DNA of 64,000 nucleotides, taken from the IMG/VR virus record IMGVR_UViG_3300020420_000009, positions 62,001 through 126,000 of that record; one strand, written 5' to 3'. The position numbers were made by a program, and so were the translations under genes. This document shows positions 2,351 through 62,407 of this stretch, piece by piece; the stretch's first letter is position 1; each line of letters begins with the position of its first letter. This DNA comes from a virus. A model generated the notes under the pieces. That model did no database searches. It saw nothing but the letters and a program-made list of their open reading frames with translations, and was not told where the DNA came from.

Positions 2351-2451
2351 TGTCGAAAGAACAGAAAGATAAGATAAGAGATAACCTCGAACTCACAGCG
2401 TTGGTGGCTATCTTTTGTCTATCTATCTTAGGAGTTTCACCAGCAATATGA
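2350..2451 (+). CDS. Tiny membrane protein (33 aa)
   Basis: Its ATG overlaps the previous TAA (TAATG) and its TGA overlaps the next start (ATGA). A charged N-terminus (SKEQKDKIRDN) is followed by one hydrophobic helix (TALVAIFCLSILGV). The tight coupling on both sides supports real translation. Function unknown; holin-like or inner-membrane-modifying roles are possible but unsupported. Confidence 0.55.
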   Translation: MSKEQKDKIRDNLELTALVAIFCLSILGVSPAI

Positions 2452-2720
2452 TTAATCCTGACCCGTGGAAAAGAGAATCACTCCCTTCAGCAGTAGACGA
2501 TGCAGCCGATGTGATAAGTAGATATCCACAACAACTAGAAATACAATTAAACAAAACAGTGGACGCAACTCCCGAAGAATTTGAAGAATGGCAAGAGAAA
2601 GAACTAAAATGGTGGGCAGACAGACAATTCCCTATAGTGTGGATTGCATGTTTCGTTCAACTCTCTGCATTGGGAATGATGGCTGCAGTAATGTTGTTCA
2701 ACCAATCGGCGTTCGGATAA
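2448..2720 (+). CDS. Small tail-anchored membrane protein
   Basis: 90 aa starting at ATG2448, which overlaps the preceding TGA as ATGA; a longer frame extends upstream but this start fits the chain. A soluble N-terminal part of about 60 residues (INPDPWKRES onward; WADRQFP) is followed by one transmembrane helix (IVWIACFVQLSALGMMAAVM). Its stop overlaps the next ATG. Function unknown. Confidence 0.6.
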   Translation: MINPDPWKRESLPSAVDDAADVISRYPQQLEIQLNKTVDATPEEFEEWQEKELKWWADRQFPIVWIACFVQLSALGMMAAVMLFNQSAFG

Positions 2721-7562: not shown

Positions 7563-8923
7563 TGTTTACTTTTCAAGAACTACAAGAAGCTTCACTTACT
7601 GAAGCCTCCACAGAACTAGAACAAGTTTTAGTTAAAGTATGTGGTGGAACCACACCAAGAAAAGAATACAAAAATGTTTTGAATGTTGCTCAAAAAAATG
7701 GTTTTGAAACAGCAGAAGAACTAGGTGAAGCAATTTTAAAAGACGCAGGAATCAGTCTCAAAAGTTCTAACCCAAGAATGTCAGAGAATGGCCCAACCGA
7801 CCCCGACTGGGAAGGTGATAACAATACTTCTAAAACAGATATCCACTTAGGAAAGTATGATATATCATTAAAAAGTGGAAGTGCAGCTCTAATGAGTGGT
7901 GGTTCAAAAGAATCTCGTGCAACATTCAAAGCTGCATTAGAACATGCAAAAACATCTTTTCAAGGAGACATAGCAGATATTGCAAAAGAAATAGAAGATG
8001 GATTCGAAAAAATGATTCCTTCAACTCTAGGACAAATGCCAGGCGGTATTATTGCACAGAAAGCAGGGACAGTATTCCCTCATGAAAAAGGTGGTTCACT
8101 TGGTCAAGGTAAACGAAAAATGGCAAAGGTTGGAAAACAAGCTTTTAAATTGTTAGATAAAGATGTGCAAGATACAGATGTCACTTATGATAAACCTTCA
8201 ACTAAAGAATTCAAAAAAAGGTCAGGTTATAGATATTATAAAGACGATAGTGGGAAGGAATATGAATATAAAGGAGACTATCATTTACTCAAAGTAAACC
8301 CAAAATCATTTGATAAAGACCAAATTCTAAAAGACGCAGACGACCTTCATACAAAAATGAAGAAACAAGTTGCAGACCTTTTCAATGGAAGTGAAGATTT
8401 TAAAAATGCATTTGTGTTTGAGGCAATGACTGGATACAAAAAATTCTCACCCTCCAATCCTAATATTGCAAAACATTTTTTAGTTGCAACCTTTCAAGGT
8501 AAAGGAAACTTAATAGGTGAGATTAAAAATTATAATGATTCATATGTTAAAAAAGTTGCAAAACAAGTCAAACCTGATGTTAGATTCAAAAGCACCTCTC
8601 AAGAAAAAACAATAGACAAGAAAAAACAAAAAACAGGATATAAAAGATTTTGGTCTGTTCTCCAACTTAATTATAATCATATACAAGAACAAACTGAAAT
8701 CATGGAAAGAGAAGCAGAACAAATGCAGAAGTTCTTATCAGAAGGACTTATATCAGAAGTTGCATTTTTCTCATGGGCAAAAAAGAAAATCAAAGGAATA
8801 GTAAACTATATTAAAAGAGTGTTCAACGCAGTCAAGAATTTTATAATGGAGAAAGTGGAAAATATACTGGAGTTTTTAGATATGACACCAGTAGTATCAT
8901 TTAATAATACCGTTAAGTGGTAA
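7562..8923 (+). CDS. Late protein, possible PD-(D/E)XK-type nuclease with capsid-targeting N-terminus
   Basis: 453 aa, unrecognised overall. The N-terminus MFTFQELQEASLTEA has two prohead-protease-like sites (LQE, LTE). The segment TDIHLGKYDISLKSGSA (about residues 80-96) resembles the metal-binding core of restriction-endonuclease-fold proteins, where a D and an S/E-x-K triad coordinate metal. The C-terminal 60 residues are strongly amphipathic (FFSWAKKKIKGIVNYIKRVF), as in membrane-active or DNA-associated internal proteins. Coupled to the preceding gene (TAATG). The nuclease assignment is tentative; a purely structural role is the alternative. Confidence 0.5.
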   Translation: MFTFQELQEASLTEASTELEQVLVKVCGGTTPRKEYKNVLNVAQKNGFETAEELGEAILKDAGISLKSSNPRMSENGPTDPDWEGDNNTSKTDIHLGKYDISLKSGSAALMSGGSKESRATFKAALEHAKTSFQGDIADIAKEIEDGFEKMIPSTLGQMPGGIIAQKAGTVFPHEKGGSLGQGKRKMAKVGKQAFKLLDKDVQDTDVTYDKPSTKEFKKRSGYRYYKDDSGKEYEYKGDYHLLKVNPKSFDKDQILKDADDLHTKMKKQVADLFNGSEDFKNAFVFEAMTGYKKFSPSNPNIAKHFLVATFQGKGNLIGEIKNYNDSYVKKVAKQVKPDVRFKSTSQEKTIDKKKQKTGYKRFWSVLQLNYNHIQEQTEIMEREAEQMQKFLSEGLISEVAFFSWAKKKIKGIVNYIKRVFNAVKNFIMEKVENILEFLDMTPVVSFNNTVKW

Positions 8924-8925
8924 AC

Positions 8926-8937
8926 CCTATATATTAA
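8926..8937 (+). promoter_or_regulatory. CCTATATAYTA motif, copy 2
   Basis: CCTATATATTAA lies just after the stop of the preceding gene and 3 bases before ATG8940 of the deformylase gene. It is the closest such motif to a start codon in the window. Confidence 0.35.
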
Positions 8938-8939
8938 CA

Positions 8940-9566
8940 ATGTATGATTTAGTAGAAGAAGCTTCGAAGGTTTTACGCAACCCTACAACAGAGTTCGACT
9001 TTGAAAACCCACCCGAAGACCCAAAAGAAATAGAAAAGAATCTTGGACAAGCCATGGAAAGATTTGGAGGTATAGGATTATCTGCAAATCAATTAGGTTT
9101 AGATTATAGAGTTTTTGTCATGGCAACAGCAGACAGTGGAATCAAAGCATTCTTCAATCCCGAGATAACTAAATTATCAAAAGAAACAGACTTATTGAAA
9201 GAAGGTTGTTTATCTTTTCCCGACATTTACCTAATGATTAAACGGTCAAAGGTAATAGAGTTTGATTACACAGACTCAGACGGAGAGAGAAGAACCTTAC
9301 AATTAGATGGAATAGGTGCAAGGTGTGTTCAACATGAACTAGACCACCTAAATGGTATCATATTCCTACAACGAGCTTCTCGTTTAAAAATAGAAAGAGC
9401 TTTACAAGCTCGACCAAAAGAGAGAAGAAAGAGAATAGATTATGAGCGCAGAATGGAAATTGCTAGACAACTCCAAAGTATACAATCACAAGCTGATTCC
9501 GATACTAACGAAGGAACAGTGCCAAGCGATGATACGGTGGCACCAATCTCACAAACATCTTCGTAG
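8940..9566 (+). CDS. def: Peptide deformylase with C-terminal extension
   Basis: 208 aa metalloenzyme that removes the formyl group from new proteins; common in marine myophages. The three catalytic motifs are present: GIGLSANQLG (about 41-50), EGCLSFP with the metal Cys (about 87-93) and QHELDHLNG with the two metal His and catalytic Glu (about 130-138). The last 40 residues (QSQADSDTNEG onward) are low complexity and overlap the next gene by 125 bases in another frame, so this tail may be a by-product of overprinting. Confidence 0.92.
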   Translation: MYDLVEEASKVLRNPTTEFDFENPPEDPKEIEKNLGQAMERFGGIGLSANQLGLDYRVFVMATADSGIKAFFNPEITKLSKETDLLKEGCLSFPDIYLMIKRSKVIEFDYTDSDGERRTLQLDGIGARCVQHELDHLNGIIFLQRASRLKIERALQARPKERRKRIDYERRMEIARQLQSIQSQADSDTNEGTVPSDDTVAPISQTSS

Positions 9567-10227
9567 AGTTGGTGACGGCTCCGATTATTGGGGTGTCCGA
9601 AAAATACATATACAGAATGAAGCAATTCGTAGGATTTTTCAGCAAGTAGAAAATCATTGTATATCCGAAATATATAAAGCAACAAATAAAGTATTTCATA
9701 CAGAAATGGCTACACTTACAGAGTGGCCAATAGGTGGTGTCCAAACACCTCACCTCGATACATATTCTAATCAAGAATATTCAATAGACCCTGAGTATGA
9801 TAAAAAGATAGAGAGAGGAGAACAAGGCCCTTCAAGAGAATGGACTTGTATTCTTTATCTTAATGACGACCACGGTGGTGGTGAAACTTATTTTCCACCT
9901 TCTGATTATTACCCTTTTGGTTGGCAGTCTGCAAACATGGGTGAAGACAGAAAAACTGGAGACGGTCTTTTATTTCAAGGAATTTATCATTCACACGGAG
10001 TTTTTCCAGTAAGAAGAAACTCAAGACATACCATGGCATTATGGTTCACAGAGGACATTGAAAAATGTGCAACTCAACAATATGTGGGTGACTTGGAACA
10101 TAATGAATCTTCAATCAAACAACACCTACAAACACAATTAGGTGATGTTTTATATACACAACAGACTGAAATGCACAGAGATAAAACTCTCTGGCATGAA
10201 TATCTAAATCACGCCAAAAAATTCTAA
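9442..10227 (+). CDS. 2OG-Fe(II) oxygenase, prolyl-4-hydroxylase type
   Basis: 261 aa. The HxD iron motif is TPHLDTYS (about residue 103), the distal His is in YHSHGVFPV and the 2OG-binding Arg follows in RRNSRHTMALWF. CILYLNDDHGGGETYF is a typical P4H core strand pair. ATG9442 gives a convincing N-terminus (EWKLLDNSKVYNHKLIPILT) but overlaps the deformylase gene by 125 bases; ATG9529 would shorten the overlap and lose this part. Substrate unknown. Confidence 0.8.
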   Translation: MSAEWKLLDNSKVYNHKLIPILTKEQCQAMIRWHQSHKHLRRVGDGSDYWGVRKIHIQNEAIRRIFQQVENHCISEIYKATNKVFHTEMATLTEWPIGGVQTPHLDTYSNQEYSIDPEYDKKIERGEQGPSREWTCILYLNDDHGGGETYFPPSDYYPFGWQSANMGEDRKTGDGLLFQGIYHSHGVFPVRRNSRHTMALWFTEDIEKCATQQYVGDLEHNESSIKQHLQTQLGDVLYTQQTEMHRDKTLWHEYLNHAKKF

Positions 10228-13343: not shown

Positions 13344-14600
13344 ATGAAGAAATCAATAAAAGTGAATGGTAAGGATTTTCCCCTTACCCCCGATAAGACA
13401 GAGGTTCTAGATACTCTATCTTCTGCTTATCCTAATCAGACCTCGTTCTCGAGGGCTGAAATCAAAGAGGCAACCGATGGTTATCTCCCATACTGGGTGA
13501 AGTCGTCTAGGTTCCCTTTCAAAGAGAAACAACCTGATGGTTCAGTTCTCTTTAATCTTGAAGCTGTAATCAGTGGATACAACGGTGGATATTCTCACGG
13601 TGGTGAGACTCCAGTTGCACCACAACCAGTGGCAGTTCCTTCGAAGGCAGTCCCTTCAAACATGCCAGTTGCAGCTGCAACGGAGTCTGTGAACATTCTT
13701 GATGACAATATCAAAATTGTTCCCGAGAAAATGTCAAACTATGTTCCGTTTGGTCATTTCAAAGATGTCAAAAACATTATCAAGTCTAAAATTTTCTTTC
13801 CAGTTTTTGTGACTGGTTTGAGTGGTAATGGTAAAACTCTTATGATTGAACAAACATGTGCTCAATTGAAGAGAGAACTTTACAGAGTCAATATCACTAT
13901 TGAGACTGATGAAGATGACTTAATGGGTGGTCACACTCTAGTAAATGGAAACATTGTTTTCAGAGAAGGCCCAGTGGTCAAAGCAATGAGAAAAGGTGCA
14001 GTCCTTCTTCTTGACGAAGTTGACTTGGGTTCTAACAAACTAATGTGTTTACAATCAGTTCTTGAAGGTAAAGGATACCTAATCAAGAAAACTGGTGAGT
14101 GGGTGACACCTAAACAAGGTTTTACAGTTCTTGCAACTGCAAACACTAAAGGACAAGGTTCCGAAGATGGAAAGTTCATTGGAACTCAAATCATGAACGA
14201 AGCTATGTTGGAAAGGTTTGCAATCACAATGCAACAAGAATATCCTCCAGTGAAAACTGAGTTGAAGATTCTTGAAAAAGAAATGGCTTTGACTGGTGAA
14301 GTTGATTCAGAGTTCACTAAGAAATTAGTTGACTGGGCTGACATAATCAGAAAAACTTATTATGAAGGTGGTATTGAAGATGTGATAACAACAAGAAGAC
14401 TTGTTCACATTGTTAATGCTTTCAGAATGTTCAAAGATAGACTCAAGTCAATTGAGATGTGTATTTCTAGGTTCGATATTGAGACTAGAAACTCTATCCT
14501 TGACCTTTATTCCAAGATTGACGCTGGGGTTAATCTGAACGAAGAAGCGGAAGTTTCAGATTCAGAAGAAAACCCAGTTGACGAATCAGACTACGAGTAG
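13344..14600 (+). CDS. cobS: AAA+ ATPase, MoxR/CobS type
   Basis: 418 aa from ATG13344, chosen because AAAGGAG (13332-13338) sits just upstream; TTG13323 and ATG13326 are weaker. A winged-helix-like N-terminus is followed by a linker rich in Ala, Pro and Val. The AAA+ core has Walker A GLSGNGKT near 158, Walker B LLLDEVD near 221, sensor 1 LATANTKGQG and an arginine-finger region NEAMLERFAI. Marine phage homologues are usually named cobS. Because the VWA/HExxH protein is encoded just upstream, a MoxR-type pair is at least as likely as cobalt chelation. Confidence 0.85.
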   Translation: MKKSIKVNGKDFPLTPDKTEVLDTLSSAYPNQTSFSRAEIKEATDGYLPYWVKSSRFPFKEKQPDGSVLFNLEAVISGYNGGYSHGGETPVAPQPVAVPSKAVPSNMPVAAATESVNILDDNIKIVPEKMSNYVPFGHFKDVKNIIKSKIFFPVFVTGLSGNGKTLMIEQTCAQLKRELYRVNITIETDEDDLMGGHTLVNGNIVFREGPVVKAMRKGAVLLLDEVDLGSNKLMCLQSVLEGKGYLIKKTGEWVTPKQGFTVLATANTKGQGSEDGKFIGTQIMNEAMLERFAITMQQEYPPVKTELKILEKEMALTGEVDSEFTKKLVDWADIIRKTYYEGGIEDVITTRRLVHIVNAFRMFKDRLKSIEMCISRFDIETRNSILDLYSKIDAGVNLNEEAEVSDSEENPVDESDYE

Positions 14601-14604
14601 TATA

Positions 14605-14910
14605 ATGGTTTCAATGTTTGGAAAAAACAAAGTTGACTACAAATACAACGAGAAGGAACTCCTCAAGGAGTTCTCTTCTTATGTAGAGAAAACTTATGAC
14701 CAACACTATTCCAAAGATAAGTTTCAGGCAACTGAATTTATTATGGACGGTGGTCACGGAGAGGGATTCTGTATTGGTAATATCTTAAAGTATGCACAAA
14801 GATACGGTAAGAAGGACGGATACAATCGTGCTGACTTGTTGAAAGTCATACATTATGGGTTCCTTGCTTTATATAATCACGATACGCATATAAAGGAGGC
14901 TAACAAGTGA
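14605..14910 (+). CDS. DUF3310 (SaV-like) small nucleotide-metabolism-associated protein
   Basis: 101 aa. The pattern FIMDGGHGEGFCIGNILKY followed by QRYGKKDGYNRADLLKVIHY matches the widespread phage DUF3310 family, whose biochemical role is not established. ATG14605 follows the ATPase stop by 4 bases. Its end overlaps the gene 45 start, placing it at the head of the clamp/clamp-loader operon. Confidence 0.7.
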   Translation: MVSMFGKNKVDYKYNEKELLKEFSSYVEKTYDQHYSKDKFQATEFIMDGGHGEGFCIGNILKYAQRYGKKDGYNRADLLKVIHYGFLALYNHDTHIKEANK

Positions 14911-15575
14911 TGAAAATTAGTAATGATACGAGGAGTGTTCTTAAGAACTTTTCTACTATTAACTCGGGTATAAGAGTTAAGACTGGAAATAAACTTGAGA
15001 CCATATCCAATATGAAAAATATTCTTGCAGTGGCAACGGTAGATGAATCGTTCCCTCAAGATTTTAGTATATATAACTTGCCTGAGTTCTTGGGTGCAAC
15101 TTCATTGTTGTCAGACCCCGAGTTTGAATTCGGAGATACAAGTTTGACGGTTGCAGACGATAACTCAAGTCTTGCATATTTTTATGCAAGTGAAGGAATG
15201 GTCACTGCACCCGATAAAATGATAACCATGCCTGACGCAGAGATTGTAATTAATCTTTCTTCTACACTCTTAAGTGAGCTACAGAAAGCTGCAAGTGTAT
15301 TAGGAGTTAATGACATGGTGTTATCCAGTGACGGAACAGTTATCAGACTGGAAGTGACTGATAAAAAGAATCCAACTTCAAATACATTCTCAAGAATAGT
15401 AGGTGAAGGAAACGGAGTATCTTATACAATGAATTTCAAGATTGAAAACTTGAAAGTTCTTGACGGAAATTATGAGGTTTCTGTATCAAGTAAAGGTATT
15501 TCACACTTCAACAATACAGATATTGATTTGGAGTATTTTATTGCATTAGAGCCAGATTCAAAATACAATGCCTAA
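14910..15575 (+). CDS. 45: Sliding clamp gp45
   Basis: 221 aa (T4 228). Gp45 is the trimeric processivity clamp of the DNA polymerase and also activates late transcription with gp55. The N-terminus MKISNDTRSVLKNFSTINSG closely follows T4 gp45, which favours ATG14910 over the GTG at 14907. AAGGAGG at 14893-14899 is the ribosome binding site. Followed by an intergenic region with two hairpins before gene 44. Confidence 0.95.
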   Translation: MKISNDTRSVLKNFSTINSGIRVKTGNKLETISNMKNILAVATVDESFPQDFSIYNLPEFLGATSLLSDPEFEFGDTSLTVADDNSSLAYFYASEGMVTAPDKMITMPDAEIVINLSSTLLSELQKAASVLGVNDMVLSSDGTVIRLEVTDKKNPTSNTFSRIVGEGNGVSYTMNFKIENLKVLDGNYEVSVSSKGISHFNNTDIDLEYFIALEPDSKYNA

Positions 15576-26232: not shown

Positions 26233-27486
26233 ATGACTTACTTTCAATACAGTTTAAAAGACCTACAGGAACGCAGTTCCGAAAAGAAATTTTCTTATAT
26301 TACATTCTTTGCAGGCGGTGGTGGTTCATCGTGTGCATATAAACTCGCAGGTGGTGATGTTAGATACATGAATGAGTTTCAACAGATTCATGTAGACACC
26401 TATCTTGCAAATTTCCCAAACACAGTTCATGAATGTAAAGATATTAAACAAGTCACAGGTGAAGGTATTATGGAACTCACTGGACTTAAAAAGTTTGAAC
26501 TGGACATACTAGACGGTTCACCACCTTGTCCACCATTCTCTATGGCTGGAACTAAAAGAGAAGGTTGGGAACAAGAGAAAATGGCTTACGGTATGAAACA
26601 ACAAAATATCGAAGACCTTACTTGGGAACAAATTAGAATCACAAAAGACTTAATGCCTAAAGTTATTGTATGTGAAAATGTAAAAGGTCTATCTATGGAT
26701 TATGCAAGAGACCACCTAAACAAAATGGTAAACGATTTTGAAGCATTAGGTTATTCAGTCACATGGAAAGTTATGAAAGGTCATGAACATGGAGTTCCAC
26801 AAAAGAGAGAAAGGGTATTCATGGTTGGTGTTAGAGACGATGTATTAGATACAATCGGAATGCCATTCATGTGTTTGAGTGGTTTATTTCCACAACCTTC
26901 TAATGAAAGAACAAGTATAGGTGAAGCAATTAATGATTTAGTAGACGACCCTACAAATGTCGAAGATGCTAAATACCTAGAACAGGCAATGATTGAAAGT
27001 TCAAAAGGTCATTGGGTGCATGGATTTGAAAAACACCCCGACCCCGAACTTTCTCACTGCACTCCCTGTAAAGGGATTGACGGAGTAAACGGAGATAACA
27101 TGTCTTATATTTCTATAGGAGACCATATTGTAAAACCATGGTATCAAGAAAACATAAGACTAGGAAACATTCCACCCGAGAATGAAAAACATTCTTATTA
27201 TATGTCAAGGATTGTTCCCGAAAATCTTCCAGCTCATTCACTAACTGAACAAGGTTGTCAACCAAAATTTATGGGTGGTAATCATTTTCATTATAGTGGT
27301 AAGAGAATATATACTCCAAAAGAAATGGTTAGACTTATGTCTTTACCAAATGATTATAAAATGACAGGTGATTACAATGACAAAGGTGCAAGGATAGGAC
27401 TTATGGTTGCACCACTATGTCTATATTACCTAGTAGAACAAATTAAGGAGCAAATATTGGAACCATGGAATTCGTTGCAAAAGTAG
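26233..27486 (+). CDS. DNA (cytosine-5) methyltransferase
   Basis: 417 aa. C5-MTase motifs in order: motif I FFAGGGGSSCAYKLAGG, motif IV GSPPCPPFS with catalytic Cys99, motif VI CENVKGL, motif VIII QKRERVFMVGV and motif X GLMVAPLCLYYLV. It transfers methyl from SAM to C5 of cytosine; the target site lies in the divergent region around residues 210-330. No restriction enzyme is next to it. Instead it overlaps a TET-like dioxygenase gene, which suggests the methyl group is further oxidised. Confidence 0.93.
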   Translation: MTYFQYSLKDLQERSSEKKFSYITFFAGGGGSSCAYKLAGGDVRYMNEFQQIHVDTYLANFPNTVHECKDIKQVTGEGIMELTGLKKFELDILDGSPPCPPFSMAGTKREGWEQEKMAYGMKQQNIEDLTWEQIRITKDLMPKVIVCENVKGLSMDYARDHLNKMVNDFEALGYSVTWKVMKGHEHGVPQKRERVFMVGVRDDVLDTIGMPFMCLSGLFPQPSNERTSIGEAINDLVDDPTNVEDAKYLEQAMIESSKGHWVHGFEKHPDPELSHCTPCKGIDGVNGDNMSYISIGDHIVKPWYQENIRLGNIPPENEKHSYYMSRIVPENLPAHSLTEQGCQPKFMGGNHFHYSGKRIYTPKEMVRLMSLPNDYKMTGDYNDKGARIGLMVAPLCLYYLVEQIKEQILEPWNSLQK

Positions 27487-51566: not shown

Positions 51567-52592
51567 ATGCTATGGTTGGAAAGAAAATACCTTTCGCAAG
51601 TCGTATCTCTTTTGGATATGGCAAAGTGGAAGAACGAAAACACACTGAATCACAGGTGTCCCTATTGTGGGGATTCTGCAAAAAATACATACAAAGCACG
51701 GGGATATCATTTCCAAGTCGGTCAAAACTTTGTATATAAATGCCACAACTGTGGTAAATCAACTTCAAGTGTAAACTTTCTTAAAGACCATTTCCCTATG
51801 ATTCATAAGGAATATATAAAAGAATGGTTGAAAGAAAGTGGTAAGTCACCAAGAACAAAAAAAATGCCTAGTGCAAACGATTTTAAGTTCACTCCGCGTG
51901 AAGAAGTTCTAAATATGAAGAGAATTGATTTAAGTGCAGTCTGCTTTCCAGCAAACGAGAAAGGAGTTGCAAGGGAGTTTCTAGAATCTAGAAAAATACC
52001 CGAATCAAAAATACAAGATTTATGGTTCGTCACCCATGCACAAACTCTAGGTCTCTTATCAGACAAGTATAAGGACAGAGTATTGGGGGAAGACCCGAGA
52101 ATCGTAATACCATTCTTCGATGAGAGTGGGGAACTGGTCGGAATATCAGGTCGTGCAATCAATGATTCACCTCTACGATATTTGACCATGAGGTTCCTAG
52201 ATGATGTTCCACTCATCTATAACATTGATAAAGTGGACAAATCAAAAACTGTCTATGTCACAGAAGGGCCAATAGATAGTTTATTCCTTCCCAATGCAAT
52301 TAGTGTTGGTGGAAGTGATTTCAAAAAGATAGATGATAGTATAAAAGAGAATGCAATACTCATTTATGACAACGAACCAAGAAACGCAGAGATAGTTAAA
52401 AAGATTAATGAGGTTATAGACCTCGGGTGGTCTGTGTGTATTTGGAACGATAGAAGGGTATCTGATATAAAGGATATTAATGATATGGTTCTGAATGGAT
52501 TGAGTCAAGATGAAATAGTAGATATAATTACTTCTAATACTTACAGTGGCCTTTCTGCAAAAGTTAAGTTAAAGGAGTATGCAAAAGCATGA
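51567..52592 (+). CDS. 61: DNA primase gp61
   Basis: 341 aa (T4 342). Makes RNA primers on the lagging strand with helicase gp41. N-terminal zinc ribbon CPYCGDSAKNTYKARGYHFQ ... CHNCGKS at about 32-68; TOPRIM-like core VTEGPIDSLFLPNAISVGGS near 231 and ILIYDNEPRN near 262, then IWNDRRVSDIKDINDMVL. Coupled to nrdA by a 4-base overlap. Confidence 0.92.
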   Translation: MLWLERKYLSQVVSLLDMAKWKNENTLNHRCPYCGDSAKNTYKARGYHFQVGQNFVYKCHNCGKSTSSVNFLKDHFPMIHKEYIKEWLKESGKSPRTKKMPSANDFKFTPREEVLNMKRIDLSAVCFPANEKGVAREFLESRKIPESKIQDLWFVTHAQTLGLLSDKYKDRVLGEDPRIVIPFFDESGELVGISGRAINDSPLRYLTMRFLDDVPLIYNIDKVDKSKTVYVTEGPIDSLFLPNAISVGGSDFKKIDDSIKENAILIYDNEPRNAEIVKKINEVIDLGWSVCIWNDRRVSDIKDINDMVLNGLSQDEIVDIITSNTYSGLSAKVKLKEYAKA

Positions 52593-54901
52593 ATGGGGAA
52601 ATCAAAGTCGTCAAGTCAGACGGGTCTAAAGTATCAATAGATTTAGACAAAATTCATAAAATGGTTCATAAAGCTTGTAAAAGAATTACAGGTGTATCAG
52701 AGTCTTTAGTAGAAATGAATAGTGGTATACAATTTTTTGACGGTATCACTACAAAAGAAATACAAAAGATACTTGTCAAAAGTGCAAGTGACTTGATAAC
52801 ATTAGATAATCCAAACTATCAGTTTGTAGCTGCAAGACTATTACTCTTTGCAATACAAAAACAAGTATTCAATACAAAGTGGAAAGATGCAGAAATATAT
52901 CCACTGTTAAGAGAAATTATAGACAGAAACATAGACTATGGTGTATATGATAAAGATATACTATCATGGTATACAGATGAGGAGATTGATAAATGTAATA
53001 CATTTATTAAACACTCAAGAGACCTAAACTTTACTTATGCTGGATTACAACAGATAGTAGACAAGTATTTGGTTCAAGATAGGTCAACAGGAACGGTGTT
53101 CGAAACACCACAGTTCATGTATATGTTAATATCCATGACACTTTTCAAAAACTATGACAAAGAAAAAAGGTTAGACTATGTCAAAAGATACTACGACGCA
53201 ATCAGTGGATTCAAAATCAATATACCAACACCTATCATGGCGGGAGTTCGAACTCCTTTACGACAATTTGCATCGTGTGTGCTCGTTGACTCAGACGACA
53301 CTCTCGACAGCATATTCTCAAGTGATATGGCCATTGGAAAATATGTTGCACAACGAGCTGGAATCGGTATTAACGCAGGAAGAATTAGAGGACTTGGGTC
53401 AAAAATTAGAGGAGGCGAAGTCCAGCATACGGGAGTCGTCCCATTCCTTAAAAAATTTGAGTCAACTGTTAGATGTTGCACCCAAAATGGAGTCAGAGGG
53501 GGTTCAGCAACAGTTCACTTTCCAATATGGCACCAAGAAATCGAAGACATTATCGTCCTCAAAAATAATAAAGGGACGGAGGACAATCGTGTCAGAAAGT
53601 TAGACTACTCTATCCAGTTCAGTGAATTATTTTATAAAAGATTTCTTGCAAACGAGGATATAACATTATTCTCACCTCATGAAGCTCCAGGCTTATATGA
53701 TGCATTTGGAACAGAAGACTTTGACGAGTTATATGAAAAATATGAAAGAGCAACTTCTATACCAAAGAAGAAAGTAAATGCAAGAGAACTATTTACAGAC
53801 TTATTGAAAGAAAGAGCAGAGACTGGCAGAATCTATATTATGAATATAGACCATAGTAATACTCATAGTTCATTTAAAGATAAAGTGAACATGAGTAATC
53901 TATGTCAAGAAATTACACTACCAACAGACCCTATCCAACATATAGAAGGAGAAGGAGAGATTGCATTATGTATTTTATCTGCAATCAATGTTGGTATTGT
54001 AAAAGACGAAGAGTTGGAATCTCTCTGTGACTTATCAGTGAGAGGACTTGAAGAACTGATAGATTTTCAAGAGTATCCAGTGAATGCAGCCAAAGTATCT
54101 ACAGAATCAAGAAGAAGTCTTGGTATAGGATACATAGGACTGGCACATTATCTTGCAAAAAACAAGGTTAAATATGACGACCCTAAAGCATGGGAACTGG
54201 TTCATGATTTAACAGAAAGATTCCAATACTATCTTCTATCTTCGTCAGCTGATATTGCAGAAGAAAAAGGTGCATGTGCATACTTTGATAGAACAAAATA
54301 TGCAGATGGTATATTACCTATAGATACATACAAAAAAGAAGTTGACGAGCTTGTCAAACCCATATATAATATGCCTTGGGAAGACTTGAGGAAGAGGATT
54401 AAGAAGAATGGTCTAAGACACTCTACACTCACTGCACAAATGCCGTCAGAGAGTTCTAGCGTCGTCTCTAATGCAACGAATGGTATTGAACCACCTAGAG
54501 ACCATTTATCAGTCAAGAAGAGTAAGAAAGGAACACTTAAACAGGTTGTTCCACAGTATTCTCTACTTAAAAATGCATATACTATACTATGGGATATGCC
54601 TGACAACACAGGTTATATCAATGTAGTTGCAGTTATGCAGAAGTTTTTTGACCAAGCAATCAGTGGAAACTGGTCTTATAATCCCGAGAACTATACAAAT
54701 GGTGAAGTTCCAGTATCGGTAATGGCAAAAGACTTACTCAACACATATAAGTATGGTTGGAAGACTTCATATTATCAAAATACTATGGACGGAAAGGTTG
54801 AAGATGTAATTACAGACCCTAATTCAGCGTCGAATGAATACATACCACCCTTGATAGATTCACCAAACAGTGAGGAAGATTGTGATGCGTGTGCAATTTG
54901 A
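52589..54901 (+). CDS. nrdA: Ribonucleotide reductase large subunit (class Ia)
   Basis: 770 aa (T4 754). Reduces ribonucleotides to deoxyribonucleotides with NrdB. N-terminal ATP-cone (VKSDGSKVSIDLDKIHKMVH), active-site Cys in ASCVLVDSDDT and CQEITLP, LCILSAINVG, radical-transfer Tyr near the end and a C-terminal CDACAI (C-x-x-C) that accepts electrons from thioredoxin or glutaredoxin, matching the glutaredoxin at 57399. No intein. Confidence 0.96.
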   Translation: MNGEIKVVKSDGSKVSIDLDKIHKMVHKACKRITGVSESLVEMNSGIQFFDGITTKEIQKILVKSASDLITLDNPNYQFVAARLLLFAIQKQVFNTKWKDAEIYPLLREIIDRNIDYGVYDKDILSWYTDEEIDKCNTFIKHSRDLNFTYAGLQQIVDKYLVQDRSTGTVFETPQFMYMLISMTLFKNYDKEKRLDYVKRYYDAISGFKINIPTPIMAGVRTPLRQFASCVLVDSDDTLDSIFSSDMAIGKYVAQRAGIGINAGRIRGLGSKIRGGEVQHTGVVPFLKKFESTVRCCTQNGVRGGSATVHFPIWHQEIEDIIVLKNNKGTEDNRVRKLDYSIQFSELFYKRFLANEDITLFSPHEAPGLYDAFGTEDFDELYEKYERATSIPKKKVNARELFTDLLKERAETGRIYIMNIDHSNTHSSFKDKVNMSNLCQEITLPTDPIQHIEGEGEIALCILSAINVGIVKDEELESLCDLSVRGLEELIDFQEYPVNAAKVSTESRRSLGIGYIGLAHYLAKNKVKYDDPKAWELVHDLTERFQYYLLSSSADIAEEKGACAYFDRTKYADGILPIDTYKKEVDELVKPIYNMPWEDLRKRIKKNGLRHSTLTAQMPSESSSVVSNATNGIEPPRDHLSVKKSKKGTLKQVVPQYSLLKNAYTILWDMPDNTGYINVVAVMQKFFDQAISGNWSYNPENYTNGEVPVSVMAKDLLNTYKYGWKTSYYQNTMDGKVEDVITDPNSASNEYIPPLIDSPNSEEDCDACAI

Positions 54902-55862
54902 AGATAGAAAAATAGAATTTGAGAATACTAATACGGGTATCAGAGGAAAGACAACTCCCGAAACATGGGCATTGTGGAAACAAGGTTATGTAGTTTTAAA
55001 GGACTTTATTCCTAAAGAAATTATTAACATGACTTTGGATACATGGAAAACTGTAGAAAATACAGAAGACTTTAGTAATATAATATATCGAGAAGGAGAT
55101 ATTATACATAACTCACCTCAAGATTCACTAGAAAAATCTATGGGTTGTTATAATGCACCATGGGGTGTTGCACTGCACAGATATTGTTGGGACAAACTAA
55201 AAGGTGTAATTGACATGAATTTAGGTGAGACTTATTCATATTCTAGAAAATATGAAAGAGGTGCATATCTAAAAGCTCATGCAGATAGACCAAGTTGTGA
55301 GATAAGTGCAACTCTATGTTTGGAATACCAGTCAGATGACGAAAGACCTTGGCCAATATGGGTCGATAACTCAACTGATTGGGTAAACAAACCTAATGAG
55401 ATATACGAACAGACCCAAGCAATTCCTATCAAGAAGAGAAGAAAGGAATCTAAATCTGTTTTACTAGAGCCAGGTGATTTACTAATGTATCAAGGGCCAA
55501 ATGTTGCACACTGGAGAGAATATTTTTTGGGTTCATACTCATATCATATTTTCTTACATTTTTATAATAAAGCTGGAAAGACAATAGACATTCCAGGCTA
55601 TGATGAATTACATGCAGAGTTATTACCTCAAAAAGACGGTGCAACACAACCATGTAGATATGACGGAAGAAGGTCAAGATACCACGGTATAGACCCAAAG
55701 TCAGAAGAGAGGAGACTATTTGATTCATTCCAAGAAGAGTTTTGGAATAGTGATTACTGGGATAACAAACCCTATAAAAAGTCTGATTTTATAAACAATT
55801 TTGAAGAGTATGAATATTTTGATAGAAAAGCACATAGAGAGAAGAAAAGAAAAGCAAAATGA
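54885..55862 (+). CDS. 2OG-Fe(II) oxygenase inserted between nrdA and nrdB
   Basis: 325 aa from ATG54885 (GTG54891 also possible). HxD motif YLKAHADRPSCEISATLCLE near 129, distal His in GPNVAHWREYF near 207. A candidate 2OG Arg is in that same WREYF, which is earlier than usual. The C-terminal 100 residues are charged and carry EEFWNSDYWDNKPYKK. Overlaps nrdA by 17 bases and nrdB by 4. Substrate unknown; the setting may only reflect shared timing. Confidence 0.75.
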   Translation: MRVQFEDRKIEFENTNTGIRGKTTPETWALWKQGYVVLKDFIPKEIINMTLDTWKTVENTEDFSNIIYREGDIIHNSPQDSLEKSMGCYNAPWGVALHRYCWDKLKGVIDMNLGETYSYSRKYERGAYLKAHADRPSCEISATLCLEYQSDDERPWPIWVDNSTDWVNKPNEIYEQTQAIPIKKRRKESKSVLLEPGDLLMYQGPNVAHWREYFLGSYSYHIFLHFYNKAGKTIDIPGYDELHAELLPQKDGATQPCRYDGRRSRYHGIDPKSEERRLFDSFQEEFWNSDYWDNKPYKKSDFINNFEEYEYFDRKAHREKKRKAK

Positions 55863-56956
55863 CAGTATTTAATAAGAACAAAATAGATTTCACTAAAGGT
55901 AAATTATTCTTTGGTGACGAACTAAACACACAAAGATTTGACGAGTTCAAATATCCTATATTTGATAAACTCACGCAGAGACAGTTGAGTTTCTTTTGGA
56001 GACCCGAAGAAGTTTCACTACAGAAAGATAGAAATGATTATCAACAACTCAACGATGCACAAAAACACATATTTACCTCTAACTTGAGGTATCAAACTTT
56101 ACTCGATTCTGTTCAGGGCAGAGCTCCATCCATAGCATTTTTACCGTTTGTGACTCTCCCTGAACTAGAATCTTGTATTATTACTTGGGACTTTATGGAG
56201 ACCATACACAGTAGGTCTTATACACATATAATTAAGAATGTATATGCAAACCCAAGTGATGTCTTTGACACAATATTAGACGAAGAAGCTATTATAAAAA
56301 GAGCTGAAATGGTCACAGAGAAATACGACAAGTTTATTGAACTCGGAAGACGAAAACTTTTAGGATTAAAGGTTGACGACTACGAGTTATATAAAGCCCT
56401 ATATCTTGCATTGGTATCTGTAAACATACTAGAAGGTATAAGATTTTTTGTTTCATTTGCATGTAGTTTTGCATTCGGTGAACTCAAACTAATGGAAGGT
56501 TCTGCAAAGATTATATCTTTCATTGCAAGAGACGAAGCACAACACCTTGCAACTTCACAACATATCCTAAAATGTTATCAAAAACATGAGAACGATAAAA
56601 TCATGAACAAGGTCATGAAGGATTGTGAACAAGAAGTCTATCAAATGTATGAAGACGCAGTAAATCAAGAGAAAGAATGGGCAGAGTTTTTGTTTAGAGA
56701 TGGTTCTATGATTGGTCTTACCTCACAGGTATTAGGTCAGTATGTAGAATACATTGCAAACAAGAGAATGAGAATGATTGGATTAGACCCTATATATGAT
56801 ATATCCAGTGCAAATAACCCTTTACCATGGACTAGACATTGGTTAAATAGTAGAGGACTACAAAATGCACCACAGGAGACAGAGATAGAGTCATATCTGA
56901 TTGGAGGTATAAAACAAGATGTATCAGACGATACATTCGCAGACTTTAAACTATAA
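55859..56956 (+). CDS. nrdB: Ribonucleotide reductase small subunit
   Basis: 365 aa (T4 388). Supplies the tyrosyl radical. Di-iron and radical residues are in ITWDFMETIHSRSYTHI (E-x2-H-x3-Y). The later helix pairs LVSVNILEGIRFFVSFACSF and IARDEAQHLATSQH carry the remaining ligands. The C-terminus (DVSDDTFADFKL) fits the NrdA-binding tail. Overlaps the upstream oxygenase gene by 4 bases. Confidence 0.95.
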   Translation: MTVFNKNKIDFTKGKLFFGDELNTQRFDEFKYPIFDKLTQRQLSFFWRPEEVSLQKDRNDYQQLNDAQKHIFTSNLRYQTLLDSVQGRAPSIAFLPFVTLPELESCIITWDFMETIHSRSYTHIIKNVYANPSDVFDTILDEEAIIKRAEMVTEKYDKFIELGRRKLLGLKVDDYELYKALYLALVSVNILEGIRFFVSFACSFAFGELKLMEGSAKIISFIARDEAQHLATSQHILKCYQKHENDKIMNKVMKDCEQEVYQMYEDAVNQEKEWAEFLFRDGSMIGLTSQVLGQYVEYIANKRMRMIGLDPIYDISSANNPLPWTRHWLNSRGLQNAPQETEIESYLIGGIKQDVSDDTFADFKL

Positions 56957-56958
56957 CT

Positions 56959-57402
56959 ATGAATGATTTAGCAGGAATAATGACAGTATTTGTAATTTGC
57001 TTTGGTGGATTACTATACACAACATACGACAATCTAGAATATAAAGGATATCCTAGAGCTCAAAGTTGCACTGGTGAGTGTTATGAGGAATATGTCAGAA
57101 CACACGGAACAACAGTAGAACAACTACAGAAACAACAGGCAGCTGCAGCTGAAGACCCTTTCAGTTCTATCAAAGGACTATGGGGTGGTTGTGCAGCTTG
57201 TCATGGTAGAGAAGGTCAAGGTATGGGTGCATTCCCAAAACTTGCAGGGCAATCTTCTGATTACATAAGTCAGAAGTTATATGCATATAAAAATAGAGAG
57301 ACGGTGGGTAATATGTCTTCCACAATGTGGGCTCAAGCAGGAATGTTGAGTGATTCAGATATAGAAACATTGTCTCAATTTATTGAGGAAACTATGAAAT
57401 GA
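56959..57402 (+). CDS. Membrane-anchored cytochrome c
   Basis: 147 aa. N-terminal membrane helix (LAGIMTVFVICFGGLLY), a short linker with two Cys (CTGEC) and a class I cytochrome c domain. The haem site is CAACH (Cys78, Cys81, His82), followed by FPKLAGQSSDYISQKLYAYK and a distal Met (Met123 likely, in SSTMWAQAGMLSDSDIETL), as in c4/c5-type cytochromes. Export and host haem ligation are required. Directly behind nrdB (2-base gap) and overlapping glutaredoxin. Would donate or accept electrons in the host respiratory chain; rare in phages. Confidence 0.88.
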   Translation: MNDLAGIMTVFVICFGGLLYTTYDNLEYKGYPRAQSCTGECYEEYVRTHGTTVEQLQKQQAAAAEDPFSSIKGLWGGCAACHGREGQGMGAFPKLAGQSSDYISQKLYAYKNRETVGNMSSTMWAQAGMLSDSDIETLSQFIEETMK

Positions 57403-57632
57403 TTGAGATATGGAGTAAACCTTCATGTCCTTATTGTGTAAAAGCAAAGAATCTTTGTGAACGAGAAGGATATGAATACAAATACTATATGTTAGAAGAA
57501 GACTTTTCTAGAGAAGAACTCTTCGAAAGATTTCCAAGTGCCAGAACTTTCCCACAAATCACTGCACACGGTGAATATATTGGTGGATACACAGAGTTTG
57601 AACAATGGCATGACGGATTAAGGCGTGTCTAG
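57399..57632 (+). CDS. grx: Glutaredoxin
   Basis: 77 aa. Active site KPSCPYCVKAK (C-P-Y-C), cis-Pro region FPQIT and the glutathione-binding GEYIGGYTEFEQW. A dithiol glutaredoxin, probably the reductant for the phage ribonucleotide reductase encoded just upstream and possibly for the peroxiredoxin. Overlaps the cytochrome gene by 4 bases. Confidence 0.94.
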   Translation: MIEIWSKPSCPYCVKAKNLCEREGYEYKYYMLEEDFSREELFERFPSARTFPQITAHGEYIGGYTEFEQWHDGLRRV

Positions 57633-59233: not shown

Positions 59234-59485
59234 ATGAATGAATTCTTTATAAAAGTCAAAGATTTTCTTGTATCTACCTTTTGGTGGTTTATTGATTTGT
59301 TTAGAGAAAGATATCAAATCACTGTATCATTCAATAGAGAGTATGGTGACGCAGATGATAAGCAATATATTGCAAAGAAAATCTTTAAACAAACAGAGAA
59401 ACATTTAAAGTTTAAAGATGAAGACGGTTGTATGGTAGAGTTCAGAAGCTCTGGTGGTCTTCATTATATAATCAAGGAGTTATAA
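59234..59485 (+). CDS. Small late protein with hydrophobic N-terminus
   Basis: 83 aa from ATG59234. An aromatic hydrophobic stretch (VKDFLVSTFWWFIDLF) is followed by a soluble beta/alpha part (YQITVSFNREYGDADDKQYI; VEFRSSGGLHYIIKEL). Its stop overlaps the next ATG. Being first in the spanin unit, it could be a holin-related or lysis protein; no family recognised. Confidence 0.58.
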   Translation: MNEFFIKVKDFLVSTFWWFIDLFRERYQITVSFNREYGDADDKQYIAKKIFKQTEKHLKFKDEDGCMVEFRSSGGLHYIIKEL

Positions 59486-59868
59486 TGCAACAATTTTTTA
59501 TAGGACTCATACTTGTTCTAGGTCTATCGACATATTGGTTGTATACAACTAATCAAACTTTAGCAGAGAACAATATGAAATTAGAAATGGCTGTAGAAGA
59601 ACAAAAACAAGCCATGGAGGCTCTTCGAGAGTCTTACGAGAAACAAGGTAAAGCACTCATGAACATGAGTAGAAAGAATGCAGAGATAGAAGCAGAGAAA
59701 GCTGAATATCTTGCAATCTTTAGTAGACATAATTTAGATATGCTTGCATTGAAAAAACCTGGCCTTATAACAAATAGGTTTAACAATGGAAGTGAACAAG
59801 TAATGGAGACGATGGAAAATGATACAGAAGAACTTTATAATCTTACTGTCCCTAATGATAGTGATTAG
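59485..59868 (+). CDS. Inner-membrane spanin-like protein (i-spanin candidate)
   Basis: 127 aa. One N-terminal transmembrane helix (FFIGLILVLGLSTYWLYT) followed by a long periplasmic coiled coil (ENNMKLEMAVEEQKQAMEAL; NMSRKNAEIEAEKAEYLAIF), the layout of Rz-type i-spanins. Overlaps the lipoprotein gene by 50 bases in another frame, as Rz/Rz1 pairs often do. Would fuse inner and outer membranes at lysis. Confidence 0.68.
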   Translation: MQQFFIGLILVLGLSTYWLYTTNQTLAENNMKLEMAVEEQKQAMEALRESYEKQGKALMNMSRKNAEIEAEKAEYLAIFSRHNLDMLALKKPGLITNRFNNGSEQVMETMENDTEELYNLTVPNDSD

Positions 59869-60337
59869 TGGGTGTTCCAGTTTTGGTGCAAGAAAAATAG
59901 AAACAGTTTCTAAACCAATAGAAATTGATATCATGCAACCCGATTTACCTCGACCATTACAGCTGACAGCTCCCGAATGGTGGGTTGTATCAGATGCAGT
60001 GATTACTAATCCATGCAGAAAGGTATTTGACGAAGAGAAACAAAAAGAACTCAGACCAAAGGCATGTGCAAAAGAGGATACAGAGAATCCCGATTGGCCA
60101 GAAGGATATACATATCTAGATAGGTTCCTTGACGAAATGAGAGAACAGAATAATGGTGAAGTCTTATTTGTTGCAACCACAATAGGTGACTACAAAGTCA
60201 TGGCAGAGGACATGCAAGAATTGAGACGATACATAAAACAAATGGGTGAAGTAATAATATATTATAGGAATGTGACAATCAAAGGTGAGCCTGGGGTTGG
60301 AGCTGCAGTGAAAAAGAATGAGACCACCAAAGATTAA
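59819..60337 (+). CDS. Outer-membrane lipoprotein, o-spanin-like
   Basis: 172 aa. Signal with lipobox VISGC (Cys19). The mature part is larger than classical Rz1 but contains KPIEIDIMQPDLPRPLQLTA and PEWWVVSDAVITNPC, a pattern I recognise from spanin partners in marine phages. The C-terminus is helical (MAEDMQELRRYIKQMGEVII). Starts inside the i-spanin-like gene. Confidence 0.65.
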   Translation: MIQKNFIILLSLMIVISGCSSFGARKIETVSKPIEIDIMQPDLPRPLQLTAPEWWVVSDAVITNPCRKVFDEEKQKELRPKACAKEDTENPDWPEGYTYLDRFLDEMREQNNGEVLFVATTIGDYKVMAEDMQELRRYIKQMGEVIIYYRNVTIKGEPGVGAAVKKNETTKD

Positions 60338-61773: not shown

Positions 61774-62407
61774 AGACTATGGGATACTAGACAAGTATCA
61801 ACTAAACTCAAATCTTATTATATTGTTTGACGAAATCATAAATGTTGAAATGTGTGAAACATTGATTGTTGATTTCCAAAGTATACCAGCTGTAGAAACT
61901 GTAGTTATTGACGGTGTAGAACTACCAAAAGATGAGAAAATAAGAAACGAGGGTGTGTGGAGAGTAGAAAACAGACCCGACAATCAATGGGCAGTTCTCA
62001 ATAAGACAAAAGTATTAGATGATGTAGTGCAAAAGATAGACTTTGCATTACCAAAAGGATTCCATTTTGGAAATGTCACTCAAGGACAGTTTTTTCAATT
62101 GGGTGAGGGAGACCATGTTCCATGGAGTAATGCACAAAGTGAAATGGAGAAGGGAGATAGTGGAACAGTTATTATTTTTCTCAATGACGATTTTACAGGT
62201 GGTGATTATGTTGTTAATAATCATGTAATCAAGACAAGACAAGGAACAGTGATAGGACACAACTATCACCAAAATTTATGGACAAGTTTTCAACCCATAC
62301 ATAAAGGGTGCAGATTTTATTTACAACTCTATTTTGAGTTGCCAACAGATTTACAGGAGATAGTGGACAATGCCAGTGAAGTTCGGGAAGAGTCAAGTCA
62401 GAGTTGA
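61760..62407 (+). CDS. 2OG-oxygenase-fold protein with altered HxD (oxygenase run, 3)
   Basis: 215 aa. The fold pattern is present (QFFQLGEGDHVPWSNAQSEM; VIIFLNDDFTGGDYVVNNHV; YHQNLWTSFQPIHKGCRFYL), but the usual H-x-D/E is H-V-P-W, so the iron-binding acid seems lost. The distal His and Arg (HKGCR) remain. It may be inactive, a regulator of its neighbours, or use another ligand. Overlaps the previous gene by 14 bases. Confidence 0.65.
   Translation: MDITRDYGILDKYQLNSNLIILFDEIINVEMCETLIVDFQSIPAVETVVIDGVELPKDEKIRNEGVWRVENRPDNQWAVLNKTKVLDDVVQKIDFALPKGFHFGNVTQGQFFQLGEGDHVPWSNAQSEMEKGDSGTVIIFLNDDFTGGDYVVNNHVIKTRQGTVIGHNYHQNLWTSFQPIHKGCRFYLQLYFELPTDLQEIVDNASEVREESSQS

Follow-up and report, generated by a model that had tools for sequence, protein, structure and literature searches.

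A predicted membrane-anchored cytochrome c family in the operons of uncultivated marine phages

The cytochrome gene and its predicted product

The window analysed here is a stretch of 64,000 nucleotides (positions 62,001 to 126,000) of the 129,718-base IMG/VR virus record IMGVR_UViG_3300020420_000009. Its plus strand carries nrdA, the gene for the ribonucleotide reductase large subunit (52589-54901; PF02867, 450 bits), and nrdB, the gene for the class Ia small subunit (55859-56956; PF00268, 186 bits). Two bases after the nrdB stop, an in-frame ORF of 147 amino acids runs from an ATG to a TGA (56959-57402, plus strand), and its end is overlapped by 4 bases by the start of a glutaredoxin gene on the same strand (57399-57632; PF00462, 47 bits). 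The ORF between nrdA and nrdB (54888-55862) carries the PHROG label "ferrochelatase". No Pfam or NCBIfam match was obtained for it, so the label is doubtful and the ORF was not taken as a heme biosynthesis gene. Two overlapping ORFs at 59485-60337 resemble, by eye, an Rz-like protein and a lipoprotein spanin and are regarded as putative.

The Pfam profile Cytochrom_C (PF00034) matched residues 77-144 of the 147-residue protein with 38.2 bits (E 3.8e-09; cut-off 21.3 bits), the single match to this profile in the entire virus record. Cytochrome_CBB3 (PF13442), the other profile proposed as a check in the initial annotation, scored 25.4 bits and fell below its cut-off of 27. A transmembrane anchor is predicted at residues 4-22 (56968-57024, mean Kyte-Doolittle hydropathy 1.89), within a helix spanning residues 2-24 of the structure model. 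It is followed by a CxGECY motif at residues 37-42 (57067-57084; Cys37 and Cys41), the heme-attachment motif CAACH at residues 78-82 (57190-57204) and Met123 (57325-57327), the likely axial heme ligand. The coordinates, the hydropathy and the matches to PF00034, PF00268 and PF00462 bear out the initial annotation of an anchored ORF with CAACH, placed behind nrdB and ahead of glutaredoxin. The distal Met suggested there is likewise supported as a predicted ligand. C78, C81, H82, M123 and W124 were invariant in the 67 sequences of alignment A4, and Met123 was aligned with the methionine in the 'AAVMQAQ' segment of cytochrome c554 from Vibrio (2zzs), which is presumably the axial heme ligand in the c5/c554 group. 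Judged by its sequence, the ORF encodes a class I c-type cytochrome with predicted heme binding.

A first structure model from 26 sequences was too poor for use (mean pLDDT 67.9). AlphaFold2 prediction from alignment A4 resulted in a mean pLDDT of 87.8 and a pTM of 0.60, and the best solved match of this model in Foldseek was cytochrome c554 (E 2.3e-05). With VIA-align, the heme-domain model was superimposed on 8yts (Z 14.7, rmsd 1.3, 81 aligned), 1cno (Z 13.1, rmsd 1.6, 81 aligned) and 2zzs (Z 13.0, rmsd 1.6, 79 aligned), and the model on 8smr_K, a chain of the Pseudomonas bc1-cbb3 supercomplex (Z 12.2, rmsd 1.8, 81 aligned). Sequence profiles matched c552 (1h1o, E 2.9e-19), c554 (E 2.9e-18) and c4 (E 4.2e-18). 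As modelled, the phage protein has a cytochrome c fold. In the viral structure library the model had no match at E <= 0.001, and no family in PHROGs matched the window cytochrome.

The fold of the heme domain is similar to that of the monoheme c5/c554/c552 and diheme c4 cytochromes (2zzs, 8yts, 1cno, 1etp, 8smr_K; Z 8-15), and CXXCH, the aligned Met and 26-37% identity over about 80 residues are common to these chains and the phage protein. In contrast to them, the phage protein carries a CxGECY collar, a linker and an anchor that looks uncleaved. Assignment as a diheme cytochrome c4 was rejected, as the window protein has one heme motif in one heme domain (residues 77-144). The cbb3 subunit III, CcoP, was also rejected (TIGR00782, 18.9 bits against a cut-off of 179.95; PF13442 below cut-off; one CXXCH), and so was the cyanobacterial cytochrome c6, PetJ (NF045930, 12.7 bits against a cut-off of 135). 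CcoP and the CycM or cy type, which are membrane-anchored bacterial cytochromes c, resemble the predicted architecture of the phage protein in combining an N-terminal anchor with a periplasmic class I domain.

Distribution, conservation and genomic setting

A peptide-pattern scan of IMG/VR matched 298 stretches, 281 of which encode relatives of the cytochrome; 80 of these relatives were kept as loci for neighbour counts. Among 50,697 GenBank phage records no cytochrome match was observed, even at E 1. The earlier statement that phage cytochromes c are rare is therefore correct for named phages but not for uncultivated marine phages. A scan of 84,980 species genomes, which would miss diverged relatives because it was built on two exact peptide patterns, gave three matches, each of them a copy of this phage operon within a metagenome bin. 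The bins of these phage operons (L082, L083 and L084) were named Synechococcus, Planctomycetaceae and Sphingobacteriales, and 60 genomes, the L084 genome and those related to it, yielded no additional match.

The respiratory genes reported from early viromes have been questioned as cellular contamination; sdhB, cydA and coxA are listed in viromes by a paper whose title warns of it (PMC3877843). A misassembled or contaminating bacterial gene was accordingly considered for the phage cytochrome too, as it had been in the initial annotation. The neighbours of the cytochrome in the 80 kept loci are phage genes, in an order that recurs across independent contigs, and even the three matches in bacterial species genomes lie in this phage operon. 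Bacterial plasmid homologues were all less than 60% identical, and the four that were fetched lacked CxGxCY (4/4). The plasmid cytochromes were found beside PQQ-dependent or sugar dehydrogenases and were too distant for the rooting of a tree. The repeated occurrence in viral operons excludes a misassembled bacterial fragment, and bacterial contamination has a negligible probability. Nor is the gene a chance find, as the family is present in hundreds of viral contigs with a median pairwise dN/dS of 0.24.

nrdB was located within 1.5 kb of the cytochrome in 60 of the 80 loci, and glutaredoxin in 56. In ten loci both flanks extended for at least 1.5 kb and nrdB was absent from that span; in the remaining ten the flank was too short to judge. 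The ribonucleotide reductase operon emphasised in the initial annotation is thus the commonest slot, but it does not define the family. Other contexts included a putative spanin pair, gp46/gp47 with an upstream peroxiredoxin, UvsW and Hsp20; peroxiredoxin was tested (PF00578), and the other names are tentative, given by resemblance. The frequent proximity of nrdB and glutaredoxin would fit a cytochrome that is a dedicated redox partner of these two proteins. However, c-type heme attachment is periplasmic and ribonucleotide reductase is cytoplasmic, which places the supposed partners in different compartments. The ten long-flanked loci without nrdB also argue against such a partnership, as does the weak coupling between cytochrome and NrdB identities (Spearman 0.26, 55 loci), and it is very improbable.

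This weak coupling is seen in individual pairs. Between the window and locus L056, NrdB was 98% and the cytochrome 72% identical; between the window and L002, the values were 55% and 78%. The DNA alignment of the window with L056 broke off where nrdB ends (56954) and restarted at 57072, inside the cytochrome gene past the anchor, so that the anchor could not be aligned between these near-identical phages. From these alignments, the anchor seems to have been swapped as a cassette between phages. Several unrelated-looking anchors precede the same heme domain across the family.

Extraction kept 133 cytochrome entries; L230 was discarded, its contig being cut off ahead of the motif. Motif and selection analyses were performed on 82 distinct copies with a length of 130 amino acids or more plus the window copy (n=83). 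L123 (80 amino acids, truncated) was left out, as was L311, a short copy of 106 amino acids with an apparent cleavable signal peptide and no CxGECY. C.G.CY was present in 83/83 full-length copies, as was MW; CXXCH was likewise found in all 83, having been required for extraction. Lys or Arg preceded the helix in 60 of the 83 copies. None is found in the window copy, the topology of which is therefore predicted from the family trend and the requirement for periplasmic heme attachment.

Pairwise dN/dS was calculated according to Nei-Gojobori for pairs with dS of 0.05-2. The medians were 0.188 for the heme domain, 0.262 for the linker, 0.779 for the anchor and 0.242 overall (n=83), values that are rough because dS was near saturation (median 1.46). 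On these estimates the cytochrome copies examined are under purifying selection, with the heme domain as the most strongly constrained part and the anchor nearly unconstrained. A loosely constrained anchor, exchanged between near-identical phages, is what might be expected of a non-respiratory membrane protein acting in superinfection exclusion, lysis timing or membrane stress with a structural or sensing heme, and a putative spanin pair does adjoin the gene in L016, L018 and L026. Such a function is nonetheless quite unlikely, considering that the heme domain is the most constrained part and that the recurrent neighbours are electron-transport genes. As a host-type gene in viral operons with a dN/dS of 0.24, the cytochrome can be classed as an auxiliary metabolic gene with a predicted effect on infection.

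The nearest named NrdB proteins were those of the Pelagibacter phages HTVC008M (68.4%) and Mosig (66.4%), both of the Kyanoviridae, followed by cyanophages at about 62%. The order primase-nrdA-nrdB is alike in HTVC008M and Mosig, and 75 of the 160 ORFs of the record matched HTVC008M, with a median identity of 42.5%. G+C content was 34-37% by 8-kb step, and psbA (PF00124) was found in none of 13 large records, which may be incomplete. A heterotrophic marine host is likely. No heme-attachment gene (PF01578, Ccm) was detected in five phage records, so maturation of the cytochrome would fall to the host.

Electron-transport neighbours

A protein of about 90 amino acids with a C-terminal membrane helix, here called c6, is encoded far from the cytochrome in the window (2448-2720, plus strand) and adjoins it in many relatives; the two genes were at most 1 kb apart in 61 of the 69 fetched loci having both. 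The N-terminal motif of this c6, PSAVDDAADVMSxYE, recurs in an unrelated-looking 231-residue ORF of another phage (G004:C1:61970-62665, minus strand). A further neighbour cluster was identified as alternative oxidase (AOX; PF01786, 236.7 bits). L300 has a compact operon with c11 (a second small membrane protein), AOX, cytochrome and c6 in this order (8413-10164), in which the genes abut or overlap, apart from c11 and AOX, which are separated by 47 bases. L280, on a contig of 250,519 bases, encodes, in this order, the cytochrome, an EF-hand-like ORF, a pseudoazurin-like protein (PF00127, 66 bits), c6, ferredoxin and AOX. Small EF-hand proteins occur near AOX in L260 (5286-5537) and L280 (8503-8754), with PF00036 tested in L260 only.

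An SdhB-like protein (PF13085, 100.4 bits) precedes AOX in L256 (8957-10579), and SdhB lies downstream of the cytochrome and glutaredoxin in L054 (1305-1988) and L057, at 71% identity. This SdhB-like iron-sulfur subunit of succinate dehydrogenase occurs in phage contigs both in a cytochrome operon and beside AOX and an FeS-assembly protein. A small ORF beside SdhB and AOX, seen in L256 (8711-8956), L257 and L259 only, consists of one membrane helix followed by CTSFC and recalls the anchor and CxGECY of the cytochrome. DoxX is located directly 3' of the cytochrome in L060, L073 and L125. In the record containing the window, DoxX (24.3 bits, cut-off 23.6) lies beside c11 just outside the window, and no AOX match was obtained. 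Adjacent to c11, a phage record of 146 kb (L102) encodes a NifU/IscU-like scaffold (PF01592, 129 bits; 14525-14974, minus strand). The sole GenBank phage record found with an AOX of this type was OQ984149.1 (Phage C48C1; L406), in which a protein of 58.9% identity (26279-26830) is annotated as hypothetical.

The strength of linkage was assessed in 80 AOX loci against a background of 80 nrdB loci gathered with the window's own NrdB. The cytochrome was present in 29 of the AOX loci, a count biased upward because the query for AOX was taken from a phage with the cytochrome, c6 in 19 and c11 in 16. The corresponding numbers for the nrdB loci were 2, 0 and 2, with AOX in none. Counted as lineages at 90% identity, the cytochrome was found in 9/28 AOX versus 2/34 nrdB lineages (p=0.016) and c6 in 11/28 versus 0/34 (p=4.2e-05). 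The difference for c11 was not significant (6/28 versus 2/34, p=0.13), nor was that for the cytochrome in lineages at 80% identity (2/7 versus 2/12, p=0.6). Fifteen records were also chosen by size from these sets. The six with cytochrome contained c6 in five, c11 in four and AOX in three. The nine without it, most of which had been picked as AOX carriers, contained c6 in three (one weak, E 3.8e-6), c11 in five and AOX in six. A strict module was rejected, since c11 beside AOX did not exceed background (p=0.13) and all three partners are also found without the cytochrome; they are recurrent neighbours and not members of an obligate module.

These neighbours could belong to a phage-specific bypass, in which the anchored cytochrome diverts electrons from the host route by docking to the phage membrane proteins AOX, c6, c11, DoxX and SdhB by means of its collar, CxGECY, and its exchangeable anchor. 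An over-reduced quinone pool would be relieved in this way and proton pumping sacrificed. The significant excess of c6 in AOX lineages is consistent with a bypass, and so are the C.G.CY motif of every full-length copy and the overlapping or abutting order with AOX, c6, c11 or DoxX in L300, L060, L073, L125 and L139. However, quinol is a direct substrate of AOX, for which no cytochrome c is required. Many records with the cytochrome, including that of the window, also have no AOX, and c6 and c11 are proteins without known function. A bypass is, on balance, rather unlikely. Possible, though still doubtful, is a broader proposal that marine T4-like phages build a partial respiratory branch that re-routes electrons, with the anchor exchanged to fit different hosts. 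Its tentatively assigned parts would be a CxGECY-collared cytochrome that docks to c6, c11, DoxX and SdhB, joined in some genomes by AOX, a cupredoxin and ferredoxin.

Proposed role and relation to known systems

The preferred explanation, to which a probability of roughly 0.6 is given, is that the phage cytochrome, a class I protein of the c5/c554/c4-like group, is a tethered, host-matured auxiliary electron carrier of respiration that links a complex oxidising quinol with a terminal oxidase. The host machinery would export the cytochrome and attach the heme, and the N-terminal helix would tether the heme domain to the periplasmic face of the inner membrane. There, the cytochrome may be reduced by bc1, or by some other membrane protein linked to quinol, and pass the electrons on to a terminal oxidase of the host. 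Respiration, membrane potential and NADH turnover could in this manner be maintained during the shutdown of host synthesis and the production of phage DNA. We infer heme binding, topology, partners, direction of electron flow and timing; the shuttle role is proposed because cytochromes of the c4/c5 family have established electron-transfer roles and the neighbours are electron-transport genes. The initial annotation had proposed a role in host electron transport analogous to phage photosynthesis genes. With AOX, SdhB, DoxX, a pseudoazurin-like protein and ferredoxin in the operons of related phages, this remains the best reading, the electron flow itself being predicted.

For photosynthesis in cyanobacteria, it is well known that phages control the energy metabolism of their hosts. 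The cyanophage proteins PetE, PTOX and PetF likewise provide marine T4-like phages with a small periplasmic or lumenal carrier and a quinol oxidase; in one survey, 70 of 153 cyanophages had PetE and 35 had PTOX (PMC10452541). In contrast to the cyanophage set, the carrier described here is a heme protein, and psbA was absent from the 13 records. The phage AOX is only distantly similar to PTOX (PTOX PHROG, E 0.016), and no c6, c11 or AOX was found in HTVC008M. The genes linked to the phage cytochrome would serve respiration and not photosynthesis. An earlier claim of viral respiratory genes concerned reads of cbb3 oxidase subunit I in Indian Ocean viromes (PMC3474794). Those were reads of an oxidase subunit and not of a carrier, and in the accessible part of that report they are given no genome context, in contrast to the phage cytochrome loci.

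No account of the cytochrome family was found in the literature searched, which also spanned the available parts of PMC11480375, PMC4053976, PMC7029224, PMC9004378, PMC8115048, PMC12713726 and PMC6359870; the text of PMC9599517 held no mention of cytochrome, oxidase, electron or respirat. Within this search, which covered mostly open-access literature and may have missed an earlier mention, the proteins constitute a genuine, widespread and apparently unreported phage cytochrome c family, a variant form of phage electron-transport auxiliary genes. Being common in uncultivated marine phages and absent from GenBank phages, it represents a widespread gene without a laboratory model.

The occurrence of a cytochrome together with respiration-gene neighbours suggests that viruses manage the breathing of infected cells, and by analogy the phage cytochrome is best read as the respiratory counterpart of cyanophage plastocyanin and PTOX. 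If this is true, a redox protein must be exported by the host and fitted with heme in the middle of an infection, and phages without a photosystem gene would steer respiration as cyanophages steer photosynthesis. The small heme protein gives a direct handle on whether phages sustain respiration in the cells they are killing.
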